This document shows positions 23,311 through 29,768 of a DNA stretch of 32,021 bases, piece after piece (within the stretch, counting starts at the first letter, position 1; each line of letters opens with the position of its first letter). The stretch is taken from positions 1-32,021 of IMG/VR virus record IMGVR_UViG_3300031951_000772; one strand, given 5' to 3'. The notes beneath the pieces were generated by a model. The model made no database searches, had not been told where the DNA came from, and was given only the letters and a program-made list of their open reading frames with translations. Both the position numbers and the translations under genes were made by a program. The stretch comes from a virus.

Positions 23311-23858
23311 AGTCCAAACTCCGTTTTGAGTTGCACGGCGAGTTTCGCCAACCGCTCAAACTCGTAGAGGAAGTCGCGGGCTGCGTCACGTTGCCACTCG
23401 GACGGATGGTGATAAGCGGTCTTGAACGTCAGCGTGAAGGGCGGTCGCTCCTTGTCGCCCTCCCCGGTGTCTGCCTTCGGCTCGGCATCGGGCAAGACCC
23501 CGGCGGCAACGTAAGCGTCCTGCAATCCCTTGAGCGTAGGGTTCTCGGCCAAAAGTGCATCTAGATTCACTTTTGCAAGCTTCATCCATTTGGCGAGGGT
23601 GCGATAACCGCGCTCGCCAGCGTTGGCCTCAAGCCATGCTTGAAACTCGCCATGCGGGACAAGTTCCTTTGCCTTCAAGCAAACCGCGCCAGCGTTCCAA
23701 GCGTGGCGGATGGCAAGCTCGGCCCCGGCTTGAGCAAGGGCCGCGCAGCGGTCGGCTTCGTCGGCGCAGCGGGTTAGCTCACGGGCGCAAGTGTCTGCGT
23801 CAAGGCAGAGCGTAAGGTCGAGAGACGGTGATACGAGTTGGATGTCGGTGTTGTGCAT
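23307..23858 (-). CDS. DUF3102-like protein, 183 aa
   Basis: Residues about 40-95 match the pattern of DUF3102-type phage proteins: an Ala-rich helix with a GxxLxxAKxxLxHGxFxxWL-type core, here AGAVCLKAKELVPHGEFQAW, followed by ERGYRTLAKWMKLAKVNLDA. This domain is common in phages and plasmids and is thought to bind DNA or act in regulation, but its role is not settled. The C-terminal half carries an acidic linker (EPKADTGEGDKERPP) and a helical tail with ARDFLYEFERLAKLAV. Its start lies within the end of the HTH gene (85-nt overlap), and it is coupled to the small membrane protein. Confidence 0.65.
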   Translation of the reverse strand: MHNTDIQLVSPSLDLTLCLDADTCARELTRCADEADRCAALAQAGAELAIRHAWNAGAVCLKAKELVPHGEFQAWLEANAGERGYRTLAKWMKLAKVNLDALLAENPTLKGLQDAYVAAGVLPDAEPKADTGEGDKERPPFTLTFKTAYHHPSEWQRDAARDFLYEFERLAKLAVQLKTEFGL

Positions 23859-24382
23859 AATTTGGATTTTCTTTCTTTGTGAACGCGCAGGGCGCGCTCG
23901 CGATATGACTCGCGGGCGGTGTCAGACTTCATGTGGCGAGCGGTCGGCAGGCCAAGCTCGTCCTTGATCTGGACGATGACCTTGCTGACGGCGGCACGGG
24001 TCACGCTGTATTTCTTGGCGATCTCGGTCTGCGACTCTGGTTTGCGATTGATGACGGCTAGATAACATTCCGCCTTCATCGCCGTCTTCCGGTCGTGCGA
24101 GTTTTGCAGGGCTTGGAGCAACCGGATCGCGGCCTCGTCCCCGAAGGTGCGGGAAGAATGACCGCCGCCCTCTTGCTGCTCGTAGTCCTTCCAGAACTCG
24201 CGGAAGACTTCCAGCGACCACCAATTAAGCAGGGCGACTTGCGCGGCTAACGCAGGCGGTGGCGGGACGCGCGGGCGGGCGTCGAGGAAAACATCCTCGG
24301 CGGTATCGTGTGGAAGTTCGGGGCCGCAACTTGCTTCCGCATAGTCGGCGGCATCGGAAAACTTAGTGTCTGGATGGGCCAT
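23774..24382 (-). CDS. Helix-turn-helix DNA-binding protein, 202 aa
   Basis: A helix-turn-helix is visible at about residues 115-142 (ESQTEIAKKYSVTRAAVSKV and the following IVQIKDELGL), of the sigma-factor-like or MarR-like type. The first half is acidic and Pro-rich (DTAEDVFLDARPRVPPPP) and then helical (EVFREFWKDYEQQEGGGHSS). After the HTH comes a basic stretch (RESYRERALRVHKERKSK). A regulatory role is likely. It is the first gene after the sigma70-like promoter at 24415-24442. It might act on the two duplicated operators at 24.7 and 27.2 kb; that is inference. The long overlap with the next gene is unusual. Confidence 0.65.
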   Translation of the reverse strand: MAHPDTKFSDAADYAEASCGPELPHDTAEDVFLDARPRVPPPPALAAQVALLNWWSLEVFREFWKDYEQQEGGGHSSRTFGDEAAIRLLQALQNSHDRKTAMKAECYLAVINRKPESQTEIAKKYSVTRAAVSKVIVQIKDELGLPTARHMKSDTARESYRERALRVHKERKSKLCTTPTSNSYHRLSTLRSALTQTLAPVS

Positions 24383-24414
24383 TACGGCCCCGGAGCGTCA
24401 CGCGCATGGCGCGA

Positions 24415-24442
24415 CTTATACAAGGCGCGAACTATTTGTCAA
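24415..24442 (-). promoter_or_regulatory. Sigma70-like promoter for HTH gene
   Basis: On the minus strand TTGACA (24437-24442), a 16-nt spacer and TATAAG (24415-24420) form a good promoter. The predicted start site gives a leader of about 26 nt to the ATG at 24382. The -35 box is flanked by AAGCAACACGCTTGACA, which includes a near-palindromic AAGC/GCTT that could be an operator. Confidence 0.7.
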
Positions 24443-24460
24443 GCGTGTTGCTTGTCGCGC

Positions 24461-24673
24461 CTAAAGAAACGCTTTGATCTGTTTAAGGAATGCGTCGGGC
24501 CAAGCACCGATTGCCAACTTGCTTAACTGAGGATTTTCCGCAAGCAGGCGAGTGACCAAGGAGTGACGCTGTTGAGCTTTGGTCTCTTGCGCTGGCGACA
24601 TGGCGGATGCGCCTCGACCCAAAACTCGCGGAGCGTATCTGCGCGAGCGAACCAAGCGAACGTGATTTTTCAT
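24461..24673 (-). CDS. Small basic hypothetical protein, 70 aa
   Basis: The protein begins MKNHVRLVRSRRYAPRVLGR and ends KLAIGAWPDAFLKQIKAFL. It is strongly basic in the first 35 residues and amphipathic-helical at the C-terminus, which suggests nucleic-acid binding. I do not recognise a family. It directly follows one of two copies of a promoter/operator cassette, so it should be controlled together with the 98-residue gene at 27.2 kb. The predicted -10 box is only about 8 nt from the ATG, so the transcript may be nearly leaderless. Confidence 0.5.
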   Translation of the reverse strand: MKNHVRLVRSRRYAPRVLGRGASAMSPAQETKAQQRHSLVTRLLAENPQLSKLAIGAWPDAFLKQIKAFL

Positions 24674-24778
24674 ACACGGGTAAGTTAAGGCAACCGCTTG
24701 TGTTTGTAAAGGGCAAAACGATCTTTTTTTCCTCTTTTTTTACCACCCTGTAAGCCCCTATAAATAGGGGGTTTACAG
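24674..24778 (-). promoter_or_regulatory. Regulatory cassette copy 2: hairpin, A-rich tract, promoter with operator
   Basis: Reading the minus strand, a nested hairpin (24748-24778; CTGTAA/TTACAG outside, CCCCTA/TAGGGG inside) overlaps the stop of the upstream gene. It is followed by AAAAAAAGAGGAAAAAAAG and then TTTACA (24705-24710), a 17-nt spacer and TAACTT (24682-24687). The spacer holds ACACAA-GCGG-TTGCCT (24688-24703), an imperfect version of the perfect palindrome in the copy near 27.2 kb. The hairpin lacks a T run, so it is not a classical terminator. Confidence 0.6.
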
Positions 24779-25105
24779 AGAGTCTTTTGCCTCATTGCGC
24801 TCGGCCTTGAGATGCTCTTCCTCGTATCGTTTGCGCTTTGCTTCTTCCTCGGTCAGTCCGTATTTCCGCATGAGGTATTTGAGTTGAGCGCGGCCCTTGC
24901 GCTGCGCGTCCTTAATCCACTGCGGTGCATTGACCTCGCCCACGCCAAGCGTATTCATGCGCTCGGCCTTGGCTCGCCTCGCCTCCCCGGACTTGATCCC
25001 GGCCAAGCGGTAATGCTCCGCGCTGCGCTTCTTCGCCTTGCCTGTCCCTGCCTTGCCGCCCCTCTTGCCGAGGGCAGCGGCGGCTTTGCTGATGGCGTCA
25101 CTCAT
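24773..25105 (-). CDS. Small basic hypothetical protein, 110 aa
   Basis: The start chosen is the ATG at 25105, which overlaps the upstream stop as ATGA. The protein opens MSDAISKAAAALGKRGGKAG, followed by a Lys/Arg-rich stretch (RSAEHYRLAGIKSGEARRAK). A helical C-terminus (KYGLTEEEAKRKRYEEEHLK) follows. The A-x-x-L-G-x-x-G-G-K pattern with basic repeats is seen in small phage and plasmid proteins that may bind nucleic acid. It is part of a run of coupled small genes (24.8-26.3 kb). Function unknown. Confidence 0.6.
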   Translation of the reverse strand: MSDAISKAAAALGKRGGKAGTGKAKKRSAEHYRLAGIKSGEARRAKAERMNTLGVGEVNAPQWIKDAQRKGRAQLKYLMRKYGLTEEEAKRKRYEEEHLKAERNEAKDSL

Positions 25106-25296
25106 GACTTCCAGACCTCCTCCTGTTGCCAATCGGCGTAATCGTCGAGGAAGGCTTTGACGTTTTCCAGCGTTGGTTCCCCGTCCCATTCGTCGTGCCG
25201 CTCGCACTCTACGAGCCAGCCGTTGAATGACTTGGTGATGCGCTTGCCAATCGCGCGGTCGCGGGCCGAGTAGCGGTCAAGTGGGTGCGGTTTCAT
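25102..25296 (-). CDS. Small hypothetical protein, 64 aa
   Basis: The sequence begins MKPHPLDRYSARDRAIGKRI and ends YADWQQEEVWKS. It is charged, with a basic first third, an acidic helical last third and several Trp. No membrane segment or motif is seen. Both ends overlap neighbours as ATGA, so it is translated as part of the coupled run of small genes. I recognise no family. Confidence 0.6.
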   Translation of the reverse strand: MKPHPLDRYSARDRAIGKRITKSFNGWLVECERHDEWDGEPTLENVKAFLDDYADWQQEEVWKS

Positions 25297-25793
25297 ACGG
25301 CGGCGGGGCTTGCGGTTACGATATACTCGTCGGCGTCGAACTCGGCAAACACAAGGTTCGTCGGCTCGCAGTCGGCTTGCGCCAAGGCCAAGGCGTCCTG
25401 CTTGGTCGCTGGCACATTCCGCGCAGGGAACGCGCCCCGGAGGCGAGCGACCTTGCGGGTGTCGCGCTCGCGCTCAAGCTCGGCCTGCCATAGCTCCCAT
25501 GCGTCTTCCAGCTTGCCGCGCAGGATGCGGGTCGGCGTATCGGTGTCGGCTGCGATGTCGGCGCAGACCTTGGCCCACTCCTTTTCGGAGCAGGCGAAGG
25601 GCGGGTTGGGATACTTGTAGCCGCAGCGCGGCGACCATGTGATGCGAACTCCGGTGCGGTCCTCAAAGTAGCGCACGAAGTCCTCGTCGGTTAGGTCGAA
25701 GCTAAACTCGCGCACGGCGAGCAGGGCTTCGATGTCTTGGCAGATGGCAACGGGGCCGCTGCGCTTGTATCCGGTTTGGGCGGTGAAGGTCAT
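25293..25793 (-). CDS. Hypothetical protein, 166 aa
   Basis: The start chosen is the ATG at 25793 (ATGA overlap with the upstream stop); a longer open frame reaches 26237 but crosses two other genes. The protein has an alpha/beta look. It opens MTFTAQTGYKRSGPVAICQD, then LTDEDFVRYFEDRTGVRITW. A possible zinc or redox pair (RCGYKYPNPPFACSEKEW, about 60-77) comes next, then a long helix with ELWQAELERERDTRKVARLR and a C-terminal Ala-rich strand (EFDADEYIVTASPAAV). I recognise no family. It may be an accessory protein for host takeover, but nothing in the sequence shows that. Confidence 0.6.
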   Translation of the reverse strand: MTFTAQTGYKRSGPVAICQDIEALLAVREFSFDLTDEDFVRYFEDRTGVRITWSPRCGYKYPNPPFACSEKEWAKVCADIAADTDTPTRILRGKLEDAWELWQAELERERDTRKVARLRGAFPARNVPATKQDALALAQADCEPTNLVFAEFDADEYIVTASPAAV

Positions 25794-25975
25794 GGCAAGA
25801 CCTCCTGCGCGTTGAGCGGCAAGACGAGTTGCGGGTCGGCTTGCTCCTTGCGGGCAAGTTGGACGGTGTGTGCGTGACGGGCCGCGACTTCGGTGAACTT
25901 GAGCACGGCGTCGAGGTCGAAGTCGTGCTGCGCGTTGAATAGCGCGGCGGCTTGGAGGATGGAGTGGATGTTCAT
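25790..25975 (-). CDS. Small hypothetical protein, 61 aa
   Basis: The start chosen is the ATG at 25975, overlapping the upstream stop as ATGA. The protein reads MNIHSILQAAALFNAQHDFD and ends QADPQLVLPLNAQEVLP. It is helical in its first 45 residues (FTEVAARHAHTVQLARKEQA) with a Pro/Leu-rich tail. It has no membrane segment and no motif that I can name. Coupled neighbours on both sides make it a likely real gene. Confidence 0.55.
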   Translation of the reverse strand: MNIHSILQAAALFNAQHDFDLDAVLKFTEVAARHAHTVQLARKEQADPQLVLPLNAQEVLP

Positions 25976-26259
25976 TGCACAACTTTCCAATGGTGATAGG
26001 TGCTGGCGCGGCCCTTATACTCTCCGCGCTCAAACAGGCCAAGATAGGCAATGTATCCCTCAACGTTCTGCCCTTTTGCGGCAGGCGTCCACATATCCAG
26101 AACAGGCTTGCCCTGTGCCATTTTTTCAACTGCCTTGCGTTCGTCTTGCAACGAAGGAAGGCGGCTGCGAGATGCGCGTTGTCCGAAAAACAGCGGCTCT
26201 TTTGGTTCGCCCTTGCGGGGCCAGTGCGAAACCACAATTCGGTAGCAGTGGTCTTTCAT
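25972..26259 (-). CDS. Hypothetical protein, 95 aa
   Basis: The gene has a strong Shine-Dalgarno, GGAGGAAGTAAC before the ATG, one of the best in the window. The protein begins MKDHCYRIVVSHWPRKGEPK and is basic and aromatic-rich (AKGQNVEGYIAYLGLFERGE ... ASTYHHWKVVQ). The last part is beta-like. No recognised domain is visible. Strong translation at the head of a coupled run (95, 61, 166, 64 and 110 residues) suggests that these five proteins are made together. Confidence 0.6.
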   Translation of the reverse strand: MKDHCYRIVVSHWPRKGEPKEPLFFGQRASRSRLPSLQDERKAVEKMAQGKPVLDMWTPAAKGQNVEGYIAYLGLFERGEYKGRASTYHHWKVVQ

Positions 26260-26260
26260 G

Positions 26261-26503
26261 TTACTTCCTCCGCGCCTTACGCGCTTTGCGTTTTTCCGCT
26301 CGCTCCTTGGCTATGCGGCGGCGGACTCCATCGACGTATAGCTCGGCTGCTTCAAAGCAGACCTCGCTCTTGCTGCGGCGTCCGACTTCGCGGATGCCGA
26401 TGATTCCTCCGGGGTGGAGGGTGATGACCATTTCGGCGCGGACGCCGTAGGCCGCAGGGCGAGTTACCGCTCGCCGTGCTATTGGTTTATTTAGTGTTGT
26501 CAT
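26261..26503 (-). CDS. Small hypothetical protein, 80 aa
   Basis: The protein starts MTTLNKPIARRAVTRPAAYG. It has a short beta-type core (AEMVITLHPGGIIGIREVGR) followed by a very basic C-terminus rich in Lys/Arg/Ala (RRRIAKERAEKRKARKARRK). The core H-P-G-G-I-I-x-I-R-E pattern is known from small phage proteins of unknown function, and the basic tail suggests nucleic-acid or ribosome contact. Its stop is one base before the next ATG. Confidence 0.6.
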   Translation of the reverse strand: MTTLNKPIARRAVTRPAAYGVRAEMVITLHPGGIIGIREVGRRSKSEVCFEAAELYVDGVRRRIAKERAEKRKARKARRK

Positions 26504-26545
26504 TGGTTCTGTGTTCGTTGTGGTTCGCCGTCTGGCGTCCCATGC

Positions 26546-26566
26546 CGCCCCCGACTTGCGGGGGCG
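26546..26566. other. Strong intercistronic hairpin
   Basis: CGCCCCC (26546-26552) pairs perfectly with GGGGGCG (26560-26566) across a 7-nt loop, in the 72-nt gap between two small genes. There is no T run on the minus-strand side, so it looks like an RNA-processing or stability hairpin rather than a terminator. Confidence 0.5.
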
Positions 26567-26575
26567 GGAGGGAAG

Positions 26576-26920
26576 TCATTGGTTGCGTCCGCAGGCGTGT
26601 TCGCAAAAGCGAATGATGCCCATGTAGTAGTCGCTCGCCTCGTCCTCGGTCATGCCCTCGGCCAACCGCGAGAACAGGTCGTGATTGCCAAGCTCCCACT
26701 GGATTTGCTGCCAATCCTCATCGCCTTTGACGAGGGGCATGGCCCAACGGATCGCATCGCGGCGAAGCAGCTTGCGATTGATTTTTGGCTGCGGGGTCGC
26801 TGCCGCTTTGATCTGCTCTGCCTCTGCCAGCAGCAGTTCCGTTTCGTCGCAGGCGGGCAAGTAGTCCCAGCCCTGCTCCTCCGCGATGATCGCGGCATCG
26901 AGTTCGGTAAGTGTAGTCAT
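26576..26920 (-). CDS. Hypothetical acidic protein, 114 aa
   Basis: The start chosen is the ATG at 26920, with GGAG as Shine-Dalgarno about 8 nt upstream; the frame is open for 18 more codons into the upstream gene. The protein is acidic (MTTLTELDAAIIAEEQGWDY, CDETELLLAEAEQIKAAATP) with a basic centre (INRKLLRRDAIRWAM) and an acidic helical C-terminus ending CEHACGRNQ. It resembles small phage proteins that contact other proteins, but no family is recognised. Confidence 0.55.
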   Translation of the reverse strand: MTTLTELDAAIIAEEQGWDYLPACDETELLLAEAEQIKAAATPQPKINRKLLRRDAIRWAMPLVKGDEDWQQIQWELGNHDLFSRLAEGMTEDEASDYYMGIIRFCEHACGRNQ

Positions 26921-26933
26921 TGTTCGTCTCCGG

Positions 26934-27230
26934 TTAGTCGTTCCAAAACCATCCGCTATTGCCGCGCCCGCCATCGACCACGCGATGCCTCATGCATTTG
27001 TAGCCGTCCTTCTCCGCGCCCTTACCCGGCATGATCTCGTCGTTCGGATCGAAGACATCGACATAGCCGTTGTAGCCAAACTCGGACTTGATCGCCGCAG
27101 CGGTCAGCACCTTCATTGCTGCCGACATGGAGGGGAAGTGGCCGACAACTTTGGTGTCGATGCTTGCGCGGTAAATGTTCTGCGCGGCGGTGGTGTTCCC
27201 CGCGCCCGTTGTGGTGTTCTGTGTTCTCAT
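26934..27230 (-). CDS. Hypothetical protein, 98 aa, under promoter/operator cassette copy 1
   Basis: The protein begins MRTQNTTTGAGNTTAAQNIY. A compact alpha/beta part follows (ASIDTKVVGHFPSMSAAMKV, LTAAAIKSEFGYNGYVDVFD) and the end is Gly/Trp-rich (GGRGNSGWFWND). I recognise no family. It is the first gene downstream of the stronger operator copy. A GGCGGGG run sits just before the ATG, but the predicted promoter leaves almost no leader. Confidence 0.6.
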   Translation of the reverse strand: MRTQNTTTGAGNTTAAQNIYRASIDTKVVGHFPSMSAAMKVLTAAAIKSEFGYNGYVDVFDPNDEIMPGKGAEKDGYKCMRHRVVDGGRGNSGWFWND

Positions 27231-27330
27231 TACCCCGCCAATTTAAGACAACCGCTTGTCTTTGTAAAGAAAAAGTTTCACCTTTTTTAATCTTTTTTTC
27301 GCACCCCCTAACCCCTTGAAAACAGGGACT
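27231..27330 (-). promoter_or_regulatory. Regulatory cassette copy 1: promoter with palindromic operator in the spacer
   Basis: Reading the minus strand after the large terminase stop: AAGGGG, TTAGGGGGTGCG, AAAAAAAGATTAAAAAAGG, then TTTACA (27263-27268), a 17-nt spacer and TAAATT (27240-27245). The spacer is almost wholly filled by the perfect palindrome AGACAA-CCGC-TTGTCT (27246-27261). A repressor bound there would block RNA polymerase. The order and much of the sequence match the cassette at 24.7 kb. Confidence 0.6.
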
Positions 27331-29127
27331 TTACGCGCTCGCCTTCTCTGACGGACGCTCGGCGGCGGGAGTCAAGACCTTGGCAAGCAGGGCGGCGACG
27401 ATCTGCATTTTCTCGCAGTCGCGGAGGTGATTCGGGCGGGACTTCACGACCACCCACTTCGACGCGACCGCGCCCGTCACCGGATTGCGGATGCGCTTCT
27501 TCACGGTGCTTGCGAGGTGTTCGTGCCAATCAAGCGGGAAGTCCTTCGGGAACTCCCATCGCGGCGGCTCGGTGCGGCGTAGCGCGTCGAGGATGTCTTC
27601 GCACGTAGGCGCGGAAAACTTGATGAGCGGACAAGTGCGACGAGCAAGCGTGCCGCTGTCCCATCTCCCCCCGCCTGCGGGATCGCCGCGCTCCGGGCGG
27701 GCATAGGCGCGTTGCACTTTGCGCCCGTGATCGTTCCACGTGAAGCTCTCGTTGTCCGATCCGCGCAGGGCAACCCATCCGAAACGGCAGCAAGCGAAAT
27801 AGACCTCGCGCGAGGCAAAGGCGGAATCGACAAAGACGCACGGCGGGCGGATTTCGTTTTCCTCGCGGATGCGCTCAAGATCGTCCCAAGTCTCGACGCG
27901 CCCCGCCCATCTTCCCCGGCTGCGTCCGTCCTTCGACCAATCGCGGATGACGGCCCAGAAGTGCCGCCCGCCTTGGTCTTGAACGTCCACGGTCATCGCG
28001 GAGAACTCGGCTTCCTCCCATCGGTCGCCGCTCATGTAATCGCTCGCGCTCGCCTTGACCTCCTCGGCCTTGTCTGCGTCATCGACCCACGGCTCGGCCA
28101 GCGCACCATTGATAAAGTCCTGCAAGCCCAAGAGGGAGGCTTTCTGACGCAGGAACACGACCGCAAGCTCGCCAAAGCCGCACGACCGCCACGGGGCGTA
28201 TAGCGAATTGAGGTGATAGCTGCGGCGTCCTTGCGCGGCGTTCGGGTTCATTGGTCGCCACTCCCCGGCGCGAAGCATCCGGGTCTTGTGTCCGTCGCGG
28301 ATTTGTCCTTTGCAAGCCTCGCACTCGTAGTAAGCCGAGGCCCGCACGGCATCCTCGTTCCATGCGCCGTCATCGCCGCGAGCGGCGGCGTCCCATTTTA
28401 CTTGCGTCCATAGCAGGCGTTGCATCGCTTCGCAGTGCGGACACGGGACGAAAAAGAAACGCTGATCGCCTTGCTGAAAGGCTTGCCAGATTTCCCCCTC
28501 CGGGGTGGTCGGCGTCGAGGACTTGACGCGCAGGGCGTTGGTGTAGGCTTTCGTGCGGTTCTCGGCCAAGGCCACGGCCCCGGCCTCGCGTTCGTTCGGC
28601 GTGGCGAATTTGTCCGTTTCGTCCATGACCAACAAACCCGCAGGACGCGAGGCAAGGTTGGCGGGAGAGTTAGAGCCGATGAAGGTCAGCGTGCAGTCGC
28701 GGAATTGCTGCTCCAGCGTCTTGAAGCGATGCACGTTTGAAGGCTTAAGCGCGCGGAGTTTGTCGCAGTCATCGACCATCGGTTGCCAGCGGTTCTCGCT
28801 AAAGCTCCGCGCTAAGTGTTCGCTCGGCATGACCCAGATAGTCGGCACGGGGTTGTTCGCCATGCGCCATGCCGCGCCGATCATCATTGCCGTGGTCTTC
28901 GATGTCTGCGACCCGAAGCACAGGGCGAGGTCGGTCACGCGAGGATCGGCAAAGCAATTCAGCGGCTCGCGGATGTAGGGCGTGAGCAGCGTCGAATACG
29001 GCCCCGGCGTTTCCGTCTGGCGGCGGGTTAGGACGATTTCATCTTCGGCCCATTGCCAGACCTCGCGGGTATCGACCGGGGCGAAGACATCGCGGAGGCT
29101 ACGCTCAAGCTGGCCTTCAAGTGTCAT
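27331..29127 (-). CDS. Terminase large subunit (lambda gpA/GpA family), 598 aa
   Basis: This is the packaging ATPase-nuclease. The Walker A-like P loop is FGSQTSKTTAMM at about residues 71-82, and Walker B is LLVMDETDKF at 165-174. A zinc-binding region with CPHC and CEAC pairs (near 235 and 275) is typical of the GpA family. The nuclease domain starts near 380 with MTVDVQDQGGRHFW and has the acidic strand CVFVDSAFAS near 436. The start chosen is the ATG at 29127, whose ATGA overlaps the stop of the CmoA-like gene; an in-frame ATG five codons earlier is less likely. It works with the small subunit and the portal. Confidence 0.92.
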   Translation of the reverse strand: MTLEGQLERSLRDVFAPVDTREVWQWAEDEIVLTRRQTETPGPYSTLLTPYIREPLNCFADPRVTDLALCFGSQTSKTTAMMIGAAWRMANNPVPTIWVMPSEHLARSFSENRWQPMVDDCDKLRALKPSNVHRFKTLEQQFRDCTLTFIGSNSPANLASRPAGLLVMDETDKFATPNEREAGAVALAENRTKAYTNALRVKSSTPTTPEGEIWQAFQQGDQRFFFVPCPHCEAMQRLLWTQVKWDAAARGDDGAWNEDAVRASAYYECEACKGQIRDGHKTRMLRAGEWRPMNPNAAQGRRSYHLNSLYAPWRSCGFGELAVVFLRQKASLLGLQDFINGALAEPWVDDADKAEEVKASASDYMSGDRWEEAEFSAMTVDVQDQGGRHFWAVIRDWSKDGRSRGRWAGRVETWDDLERIREENEIRPPCVFVDSAFASREVYFACCRFGWVALRGSDNESFTWNDHGRKVQRAYARPERGDPAGGGRWDSGTLARRTCPLIKFSAPTCEDILDALRRTEPPRWEFPKDFPLDWHEHLASTVKKRIRNPVTGAVASKWVVVKSRPNHLRDCEKMQIVAALLAKVLTPAAERPSEKASA

Positions 29128-29768
29128 GCCTCTATGACCCATCCTGCGAAGTCACCAAAGCGGAATATCTCGGTCGCGGGTTCGATCTCGCGCGGGTTAA
29201 TTGGACGCTGCACTCCACCAAGGGAAAGCTCCTTGGCAAGAATCTCGCGGGCATCGACTCCTGCCGCCGCCTTACCCGCAAGCGCAAGACGCCAGAGGAC
29301 AGTCGCAACGTAACCGGACGCAGGCTCGCATTTGTCGAAGATGACGATTGCCCCGCCCGGACGAAGGCGCGAACGGAGGCGAGCGACAAACTCTCCGCGC
29401 TTTGATGGAGGGACGAACATCAAGCAAAGGAAAAGAACGGCGAGGTCAAAGGGCTGATAGTCGAAGTCGGCGGCATCCGCTACCACAAGGCGACCGGGGC
29501 CGCAGTATATGTCTGCCATAGCTGCCGAGTTATCTATCGGCACAATCTCCGCTTTGCGCGAGGCGAGCGTGTCGGCCAAGGCGTTGCCGATATTCCCCGT
29601 GCTTGCGCCTATATCATAGACCCGCCCGCCTTCCGGGATGTAGTGACGGGCGACATGGGCAACAACGCCTGTCGTTAGGTCATACCACGGAAGCTGCTCG
29701 CGCACGTGGCGGTCGAACTCTCCCGCGACATCCGAGGTCTTAAATGTCCAATCGCGCGGGATGTTCAT
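29124..29768 (-). CDS. CmoA-like SAM enzyme (putative carboxy-SAM synthase), 214 aa
   Basis: E. coli CmoA converts SAM and prephenate into Cx-SAM and phenylpyruvate. This protein follows CmoA closely: DWTF at 6-9, motif I RVYDIGASTGNIG at 49-61 (CmoA QVYDLGCSLGAAT), IVPIDNSAAM at 75-84 (CmoA IIAIDNSPAM), FVPPSKRGEF at 118-127 (CmoA FLEPSERQAL) and LRPGGAIVIFDK at 135-146. The C-terminal helix AAGVDAREILAKELSLGGV (168-186) aligns without gaps to CmoA ANGYSELEISQKRSMLENV, but R199 of CmoA is Glu180 here. The start is the ATG at 29768, overlapping the DNA methyltransferase stop as ATGA. Context suggests it supplies a cofactor to that enzyme. An ordinary methyltransferase is the alternative. Confidence 0.8.
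   Translation of the reverse strand: MNIPRDWTFKTSDVAGEFDRHVREQLPWYDLTTGVVAHVARHYIPEGGRVYDIGASTGNIGNALADTLASRKAEIVPIDNSAAMADIYCGPGRLVVADAADFDYQPFDLAVLFLCLMFVPPSKRGEFVARLRSRLRPGGAIVIFDKCEPASGYVATVLWRLALAGKAAAGVDAREILAKELSLGGVQRPINPREIEPATEIFRFGDFAGWVIEA

Follow-up and report, generated by a model that had tools for sequence, protein, structure and literature searches.

The window analysed here is the whole 32,021-bp viral record IMGVR_UViG_3300031951_000772, possibly a genome fragment, with genes mostly on the minus strand. It carries two copies of a promoter cassette, S1 and S2, each with a palindrome between the -35 and -10 elements and each directly in front of a small gene (Table 1). Our preferred reading, to which we assign a probability of about 0.7, is that S1 and S2 each head a slot for gene exchange, both slots lying in an accessory (moron-like) island that separates terL, the gene of the terminase large subunit, from a gene for a helix-turn-helix (HTH) protein. 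The accessory genes of phages turn over fast, and how a captured gene gains proper expression is rarely visible; in studied phages such genes often serve counter-defence or lysogenic conversion. Here the expression unit appears to stay put and the gene to be exchanged at the start codon.

In the mechanism that we propose, each slot would be a fixed expression unit made up of A-tracts, a sigma-70-type promoter (TTTACA-17/18-TANNTT) whose spacer holds a palindrome, a start codon placed 6-10 nt past the -10 element, and then a CA-rich, G-poor 5' coding stretch (ATGAAAACACAGAACAC). Recombination with its seam in the promoter/start-codon stretch would swap in unrelated small genes (the cargo), and each swapped-in gene would keep the local promoter and operator and inherit a constant N-terminus. 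With a dimeric DNA-binding protein bound to the palindrome, RNA polymerase would be shut out and the cargo would stay silent until the protein leaves; after release, the mRNA would begin at or within ~3 nt of the start codon. The A-tracts may act as an UP element or a DNA bend.

Both copies had been noticed in an earlier reading of the window (the original prediction) as promoters with CAAGCGGTTG in a 17-nt spacer, and we confirmed both on the minus strand. Indeed, the window has exactly two occurrences of TTTACAAANACAAGCGGTTGNCTTAA, and 100 dinucleotide shuffles of the window have no match even when up to three mismatches are allowed (chance expectation 0). The decamer CAAGCGGTTG alone, with one mismatch, is found in the window at chance level, and thus the significance resides in the ordered set of motifs. 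Similarly, a sigma-70 consensus scan of the region from 18 to 32 kb reported only two sigma-70-like sites, one of them the S1 promoter; because chance expects more, the sigma-70 score alone proves nothing.

The cassette recurs in many other viral contigs, before differing genes, as found when relatives were searched in the way the original prediction had proposed. About 45 other contigs carry the version seen in the window (type I), the first copy directly behind terL and often another behind a small conserved gene. About 33 contigs carry a second version (type II) with a different spacer palindrome, TACGCMAGCNGCTKGCGTA. A scan of viral contigs with the pattern TTTAC-N5-CAAGCGGTTG returned 81 stretches. 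It yielded 41 type I cassettes, of which 39 lie outside the window, in 32 other contigs, and show the complete arrangement, including A-tracts and an immediately following start codon. A second survey, which made no use of the palindrome, covered 80 loci that encode relatives of TerL; among the close relatives, nearly all have a cassette directly after the terL stop, with the core CAAGCGGTTG, CAAGCGCTTG or CAAGCGTTTG. The combined total is ~84 cassettes (a few counted under both types), and the A-tract pair is retained in most. Cassettes occupy one to three fixed slots per genome; a few genomes have a third cassette, and in the extra cassettes of L041, L135 and L143 the -35 element is the consensus TTGACA.

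In the type II clade, in which TerL is ~55% identical, -35 elements such as TTGCAT or TTGCCT are joined to TACGCMAGCNGCTKGCGTA, in the same place after terL and with the same kind of A-tracts, and the palindrome is often a perfect dyad of 19-21 bp. One contig, L097, is mixed: its S1 cassette is of type I, and the cassettes at both other sites are of type II. A type II palindromic promoter also lies shortly after terL in a very remote phage (L226:786-804), the TerL of which is 20% identical. A DNA-similarity search among annotated phages found no match to the window. The nearest cultured phage that we considered, Akkermansia phage Moulinsart (TerL 33% identical over 70%), carries a single small gene between terL and the portal gene, and thus has no such island.

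The cargo genes are small, mostly 55-140 codons, and diverse. Clustering, from which the first eight residues were omitted, gave 33 families in the 56 cassettes of the first survey and ~41 unrelated families in the ~84 cassettes of both types; the families share at most the first 6-17 codons. Several families recur behind cassettes of both operator types, and some occupy different slots. Homologues of the 98-amino-acid cargo gene of S1 stand behind S2 in L057 (73%) and occur as a non-cassette gene in L097 (96%), where a 92% alignment with the window gene begins at the ATG. The original prediction had proposed that the two genes of 98 and 70 residues form a regulon; this proposal is too narrow, because the genes under control can be exchanged and differ between phages. 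A Pfam search with ten cargo families gave no convincing match, and PHROG gave none for the two cargo genes of the window.

Cargo is decoupled from the terL phylogeny. The S1 cargo labels of 37 contigs require 14 changes on a terL tree, compared to 14.0 for shuffled labels, on a tree whose deep branches are meaningless because the terL 3' ends are partly non-homologous between clades. The cargo DNA of L057 and L130 is 100% identical while their terL 3' ends are only 56% identical, and over the pairs L057/L130 and L049/L130 the values are 99-100% for cargo and 56-57% for terL 3' ends. Conversely, window-like L080 and L044 are 95% identical in the DNA of the terL 3' end and have unrelated cargo, and a 97% alignment of the window with L044 runs through terL and the cassette and ends 33 nt past the S1 ATG, inside the cargo gene. 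In pairs with the same cargo, identity jumps at the start codon, from 0.83-0.90 in the promoter core to 1.00 in the first codons. This points to a promoter core that tends to stay with the backbone and to an exchange seam near the start codon, and homologous recombination in the promoter/start stretch would be the simplest route for the swap.

Empty sites are found as well. The interval between terL and the HTH gene spans 1.06-4.4 kb in cassette-bearing contigs, but only 60 bp in L109, 66 bp in L104 and 329 bp in L108, each without a cassette; because these three contigs lack both, cassette and island come and go together, as expected of a moron. The island also resembles a moron in that its extra genes lie between conserved genes, are missing in relatives and have a promoter of their own, the last as predicted from sequence. 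The stem-loop elements that follow some genes, where a moron would have its own terminator, have no T-run.

No part of the cassette is better conserved than the spacer. Among 50 distinct cassettes AAA-CAAGCG-TTG-CTT is near fixed, and free variation in the spacer is confined to the mirror pair -1/+10 and to position 6, but these cassettes were selected for CAAGCG.TTG and the core is therefore fixed by construction. In the survey that was not filtered for the core, however, CAAGCG[GCT]TTG is present in every close relative with a cassette, and at loci chosen only by their N-terminal coding sequence the spacer palindrome is present in all. In L103, which has an island of 1.16 kb, the promoter carries a diverged palindrome, CAATCGGTTG. 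That the sequence changes while dyad and position are kept is the behaviour expected of an operator, an interpretation that is well supported by these comparisons. The idea that an operator fills the spacer between -35 and -10 has thus held up: the spacer stays palindromic when the sequence type switches in the second clade, and the palindrome is kept while coding sequences differ, the opposite of the pattern that the original prediction had named as contrary to it. A conserved dyad between -35 and -10 is what a repressor-controlled promoter with a spacer operator has, and the sigma-70-type promoter is probably kept closed by a dimeric regulator that binds within the spacer.

Two details of the original prediction need revision. 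One spacer palindrome had been called perfect, but the S1 palindrome has perfect 6-nt arms with a G:G mismatch near the centre (7/8 pairs); perfect forms (CAAGCGCTTG and others) are present in relatives. A GGGG hairpin had been listed as part of the cassette, but it is good only in the S2 copy of the window, and the sequences upstream of the cassettes share no fold and are little more stable than expected (mean z -0.7).

The distance between promoter and gene is similarly constrained. The -10 elements had been noted to lie only 8-9 nt from the two ATGs, and this geometry is general: in all but a few of >80 cassettes the start codon, a GTG in five of them, lies 6-10 nt after the -10 element. 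Transcription normally initiates ~7 nt after the -10 element, so the predicted leader is 0-3 nt, and the mRNAs would be near-leaderless. Most cargo genes also begin with the same codons, ATG A[AG]A ACA CAG AAC AC, a G-poor stretch (9% G in codons 2-6), and CA repeats downstream of the start codon have been found to raise translation of leaderless mRNA (PMC9031893). A match of Shine-Dalgarno (SD) type of even 4 nt precedes only 1 of 58 cassette starts. Few genes of the window have an SD match, which hints at an SD-poor host. We do not favour the constant N-terminus as a peptide tag, since it changes at similar rates at synonymous and non-synonymous sites (27 changes per 12.7 and 58 per 35.3 sites, respectively). 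In a model of the 98-amino-acid protein, residues 1-16 are unstructured, in a model that is poor overall (mean predicted local distance difference test score, pLDDT, 58.5). A second constant N-terminus, MS[TK]TLLQGQAAQP, stands before different proteins behind type II or related cassettes (L112, L114, L229, L232).

Several observations, besides the limits of the terL tree, weigh against gene-exchange slots under a spacer operator. The -10 elements, TANNTT, are weak. Strict complementarity is missing from the extended palindrome arms, and only 5/8 pairs form in S2-type spacers, including that of the window, which makes them poor palindromes. SD sites are scarce in many other genes of the window phage too, and a missing SD is thus not specific to cargo genes and counts for less as a sign of leaderless mRNA. 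No host or prophage emerged, as the cassette pattern gave only 14 scattered matches in the bacterial genomes scanned, without A-tracts or gene context, which we take as chance. Finally, no one regulator is linked to the operator across all clades.

Other explanations of the cassettes fare less well. They could be ordinary extra late promoters that serve the downstream structural operon (portal, capsid, tail) and not the cargo; the cassettes are on the late-gene strand, for which a terminator scan gave nothing from S2 to the portal gene. We nonetheless consider this improbable, since L104, L108 and L109, without cassette and island, keep terL, the genes of the HTH and DUF3102 proteins, and gpW in line, and since the lock of the start codon 6-10 nt from the -10 element ties the promoter to its first gene. 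It is quite improbable that the palindrome binds an activator of the MerR type that untwists an over-long spacer. Operators of the MerR family also sit between -35 and -10, but this mode of action needs spacers of 19-20 bp, and the spacers found here have 17-18 bp in type I and 16 bp in type II, close to the optimum; moreover, the third cassettes have the consensus TTGACA.

We likewise hold it very improbable that the palindrome is a site for a site-specific recombinase and the promoter incidental. The very fast cargo turnover with a seam near the cassette, and the presence of up to three cassettes per genome, would fit such a site. However, no matching site lies downstream of the cargo, so there can be no excision between two sites; the seam in same-cargo pairs is closer to the start codon than to the palindrome; the palindrome has no central spacer, unlike the cores of tyrosine recombinases; and the -35, the -10 and the start spacing are also preserved. 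We give least credence to the possibility that hairpin and leader act as RNA, as an attenuator or riboregulator, and that the promoter is misread. A strong stem-loop does lie upstream of S2 in the window, but the lack of a common upstream fold applies here too, an Rfam search of the window gave no match, and the palindrome, being upstream of where transcription is predicted to start, would lie outside the mRNA.

If cargo expression is switched at the spacer, which protein does so is a separate question. That a phage protein, either the HTH protein at 24.4 kb or a ribbon-helix-helix (RHH) switch protein, binds the palindrome seems to us unlikely, though less so than the explanations above. The HTH gene is always adjacent, and copies of CAAGCG[GC]TTG stand just upstream of a phage RHH gene in two relatives (G003 and G008), which suggests that the RHH protein could bind there. 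Copies before such a gene in two relatives are at L179:16640-16760 and L181:11979-11988. On the other side, the HTH gene is a core gene that is kept in the cassette-less L104, L108 and L109, and its product falls to ~35% identity in a clade with an unchanged operator, which leaves the original suggestion that it may control the cassettes without specific support. The corresponding Arc/FitA-like RHH switch of the main clade has different palindromes, and in 13 type II contigs the motif is at only one place each. The Arc/FitA-like switch of G002 (TTTACC-TTTGGTTAACCATAGG-TAAATC) has its palindrome in the same spacer position. A divergent pair of RHH genes, one of them Arc/FitA-like, is found at L175:75-592 and L177:14089-14616; the Arc-like gene of L177 has a promoter with a spacer palindrome, and a nearby integrase-like gene (weak Pfam match) suggests temperate phages.

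A regulator common to many phages, possibly one of the host, would fit best. We tentatively extend the preferred reading to a host-regulated plug-in slot, in which at least two clades would keep a clade-specific promoter with an operator for a conserved regulator (perhaps of the host), and the constant start segment would be both an enhancer of leaderless translation and a landing homology. If so, any captured gene would at once come under the same switch.

Among known systems, the closest in function is PeSL (promoter-early-stem-loop) of T4-type phages, a short regulatory cassette that is repeated between small genes unrelated to one another and mediates the shuffling of genes among related phages (PMC4503421). 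The cassette described here is also linked to shuffling of small genes among relatives, but it has no common stem-loop and no T-run after the promoter on the gene strand, an operator palindrome fills the promoter spacer, and the seam between cassette and gene lies inside coding sequence; furthermore, the window phage is not T4-like (gpA-type terL, lambda-family portal). Operators in or over a promoter spacer are known from P22 Arc at Pant and from lambda PRM/cI, and the cI mRNA from PRM is leaderless; those operators control one fixed regulator gene or operon, whereas the cassettes would control exchangeable cargo. In cluster K mycobacteriophages, SAS, a 13-bp GGGATAGGAGCCC-like repeat, is found at the translation initiation sites of many genes, and SAS/ESAS repeats mark the starts of accessory genes, some with inverted repeats of a subcluster-specific consensus (PMC3203893). 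The cassette is similarly tied to the starts of various accessory genes, with an inverted repeat that differs between clades, but it has no GGGATAGGAGCCC-like or SD-like repeat, its inverted repeat is inside the promoter, and it has only 1-3 fixed slots. At the accessory-gene hotspots of P2/P4, the genes vary while their place, flanked by conserved phage genes, is fixed (PMC9122126). The island shares this arrangement, as well as its absence from some relatives, but differs in that a standard promoter-operator-start unit stays while the gene behind it changes, with constant N-termini as the outcome. The cassette works like PeSL but lacks the features that define PeSL, and is best termed a new variant of phage gene-exchange cassettes. 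If our reading is true, the cassette sequence could be used as bait to harvest dozens of new families of small phage genes, and it becomes testable whether one common regulator switches the cargo and whether leaderless starts aid gene capture.

Table 1. Cassettes, cargo genes and island borders in the window
Feature	Position	Strand	Comment
Cassette S1 (type I)	27231..27330	-	Between terL stop and 98-amino-acid cargo gene
S1 -35 element TTTACA	27263..27268	-	
S1 17-nt spacer AAGACAAGCGGTTGTCT	27262-27246	-	
S1 spacer palindrome AGACAAGCGGTTGTCT	27246..27261	-	Proposed operator; core CAAGCG[GCT]TTG conserved in terL-based survey
S1 -10 element TAAATT	27240..27245	-	Then 9 nt to ATG 27230
S1 A-tracts (two)	27293-27299, 27283-27288	-	About one helical turn apart
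Cassette S2 (type I)	24674..24778	-	Between small conserved gene (24773-25105) and 70-amino-acid cargo gene
S2 -35 element TTTACA	24705..24710	-	
S2 17-nt spacer AACACAAGCGGTTGCCT	24704-24688	-	
S2 operator core CAAGCGGTTG	24691..24700	-	Proposed operator
S2 -10 element TAACTT	24682..24687	-	Then 8 nt to ATG 24673
S2 A-tracts	24735-24741, 24724-24730	-	
Stem-loop upstream of S2	24748..24778	-	12 pairs; not conserved among cassettes
98-amino-acid cargo gene, slot S1	26934..27230	-	N-terminus MRTQNTTTGAGNTTAAQ is the shared constant part
70-amino-acid cargo gene, slot S2	24461..24673	-	Only homologue in near-identical contig L080
Accessory island between terL and HTH gene	24383..27330	-	2.95 kb
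terL (gpA-type terminase large subunit)	27331..29142	-	Left border of slot; PF05876, 8.6e-60
Small conserved gene (KGG-like)	24773..25105	-	Precedes S2
202-amino-acid HTH protein	23774..24382	-	Right border of island; candidate regulator of the original prediction; weak HTH matches

A second conserved intergenic element is found within the island at 26520-26578 (minus strand) and also in L038, L050, L097, L044 and other contigs. It consists of a stem-loop (TCCCGCC..GGCGGCATGGGACGCCA) and a leader that ends in GAACACAGAAC(AC)AATG, and differing genes follow it in different contigs. The stem varies between contigs (CCCCGCAAGTCGGGG, CTGCCACGCGCAG). The element has AACACAGAAC in common with the 5' coding part of the cassette, and may be another exchange seam.

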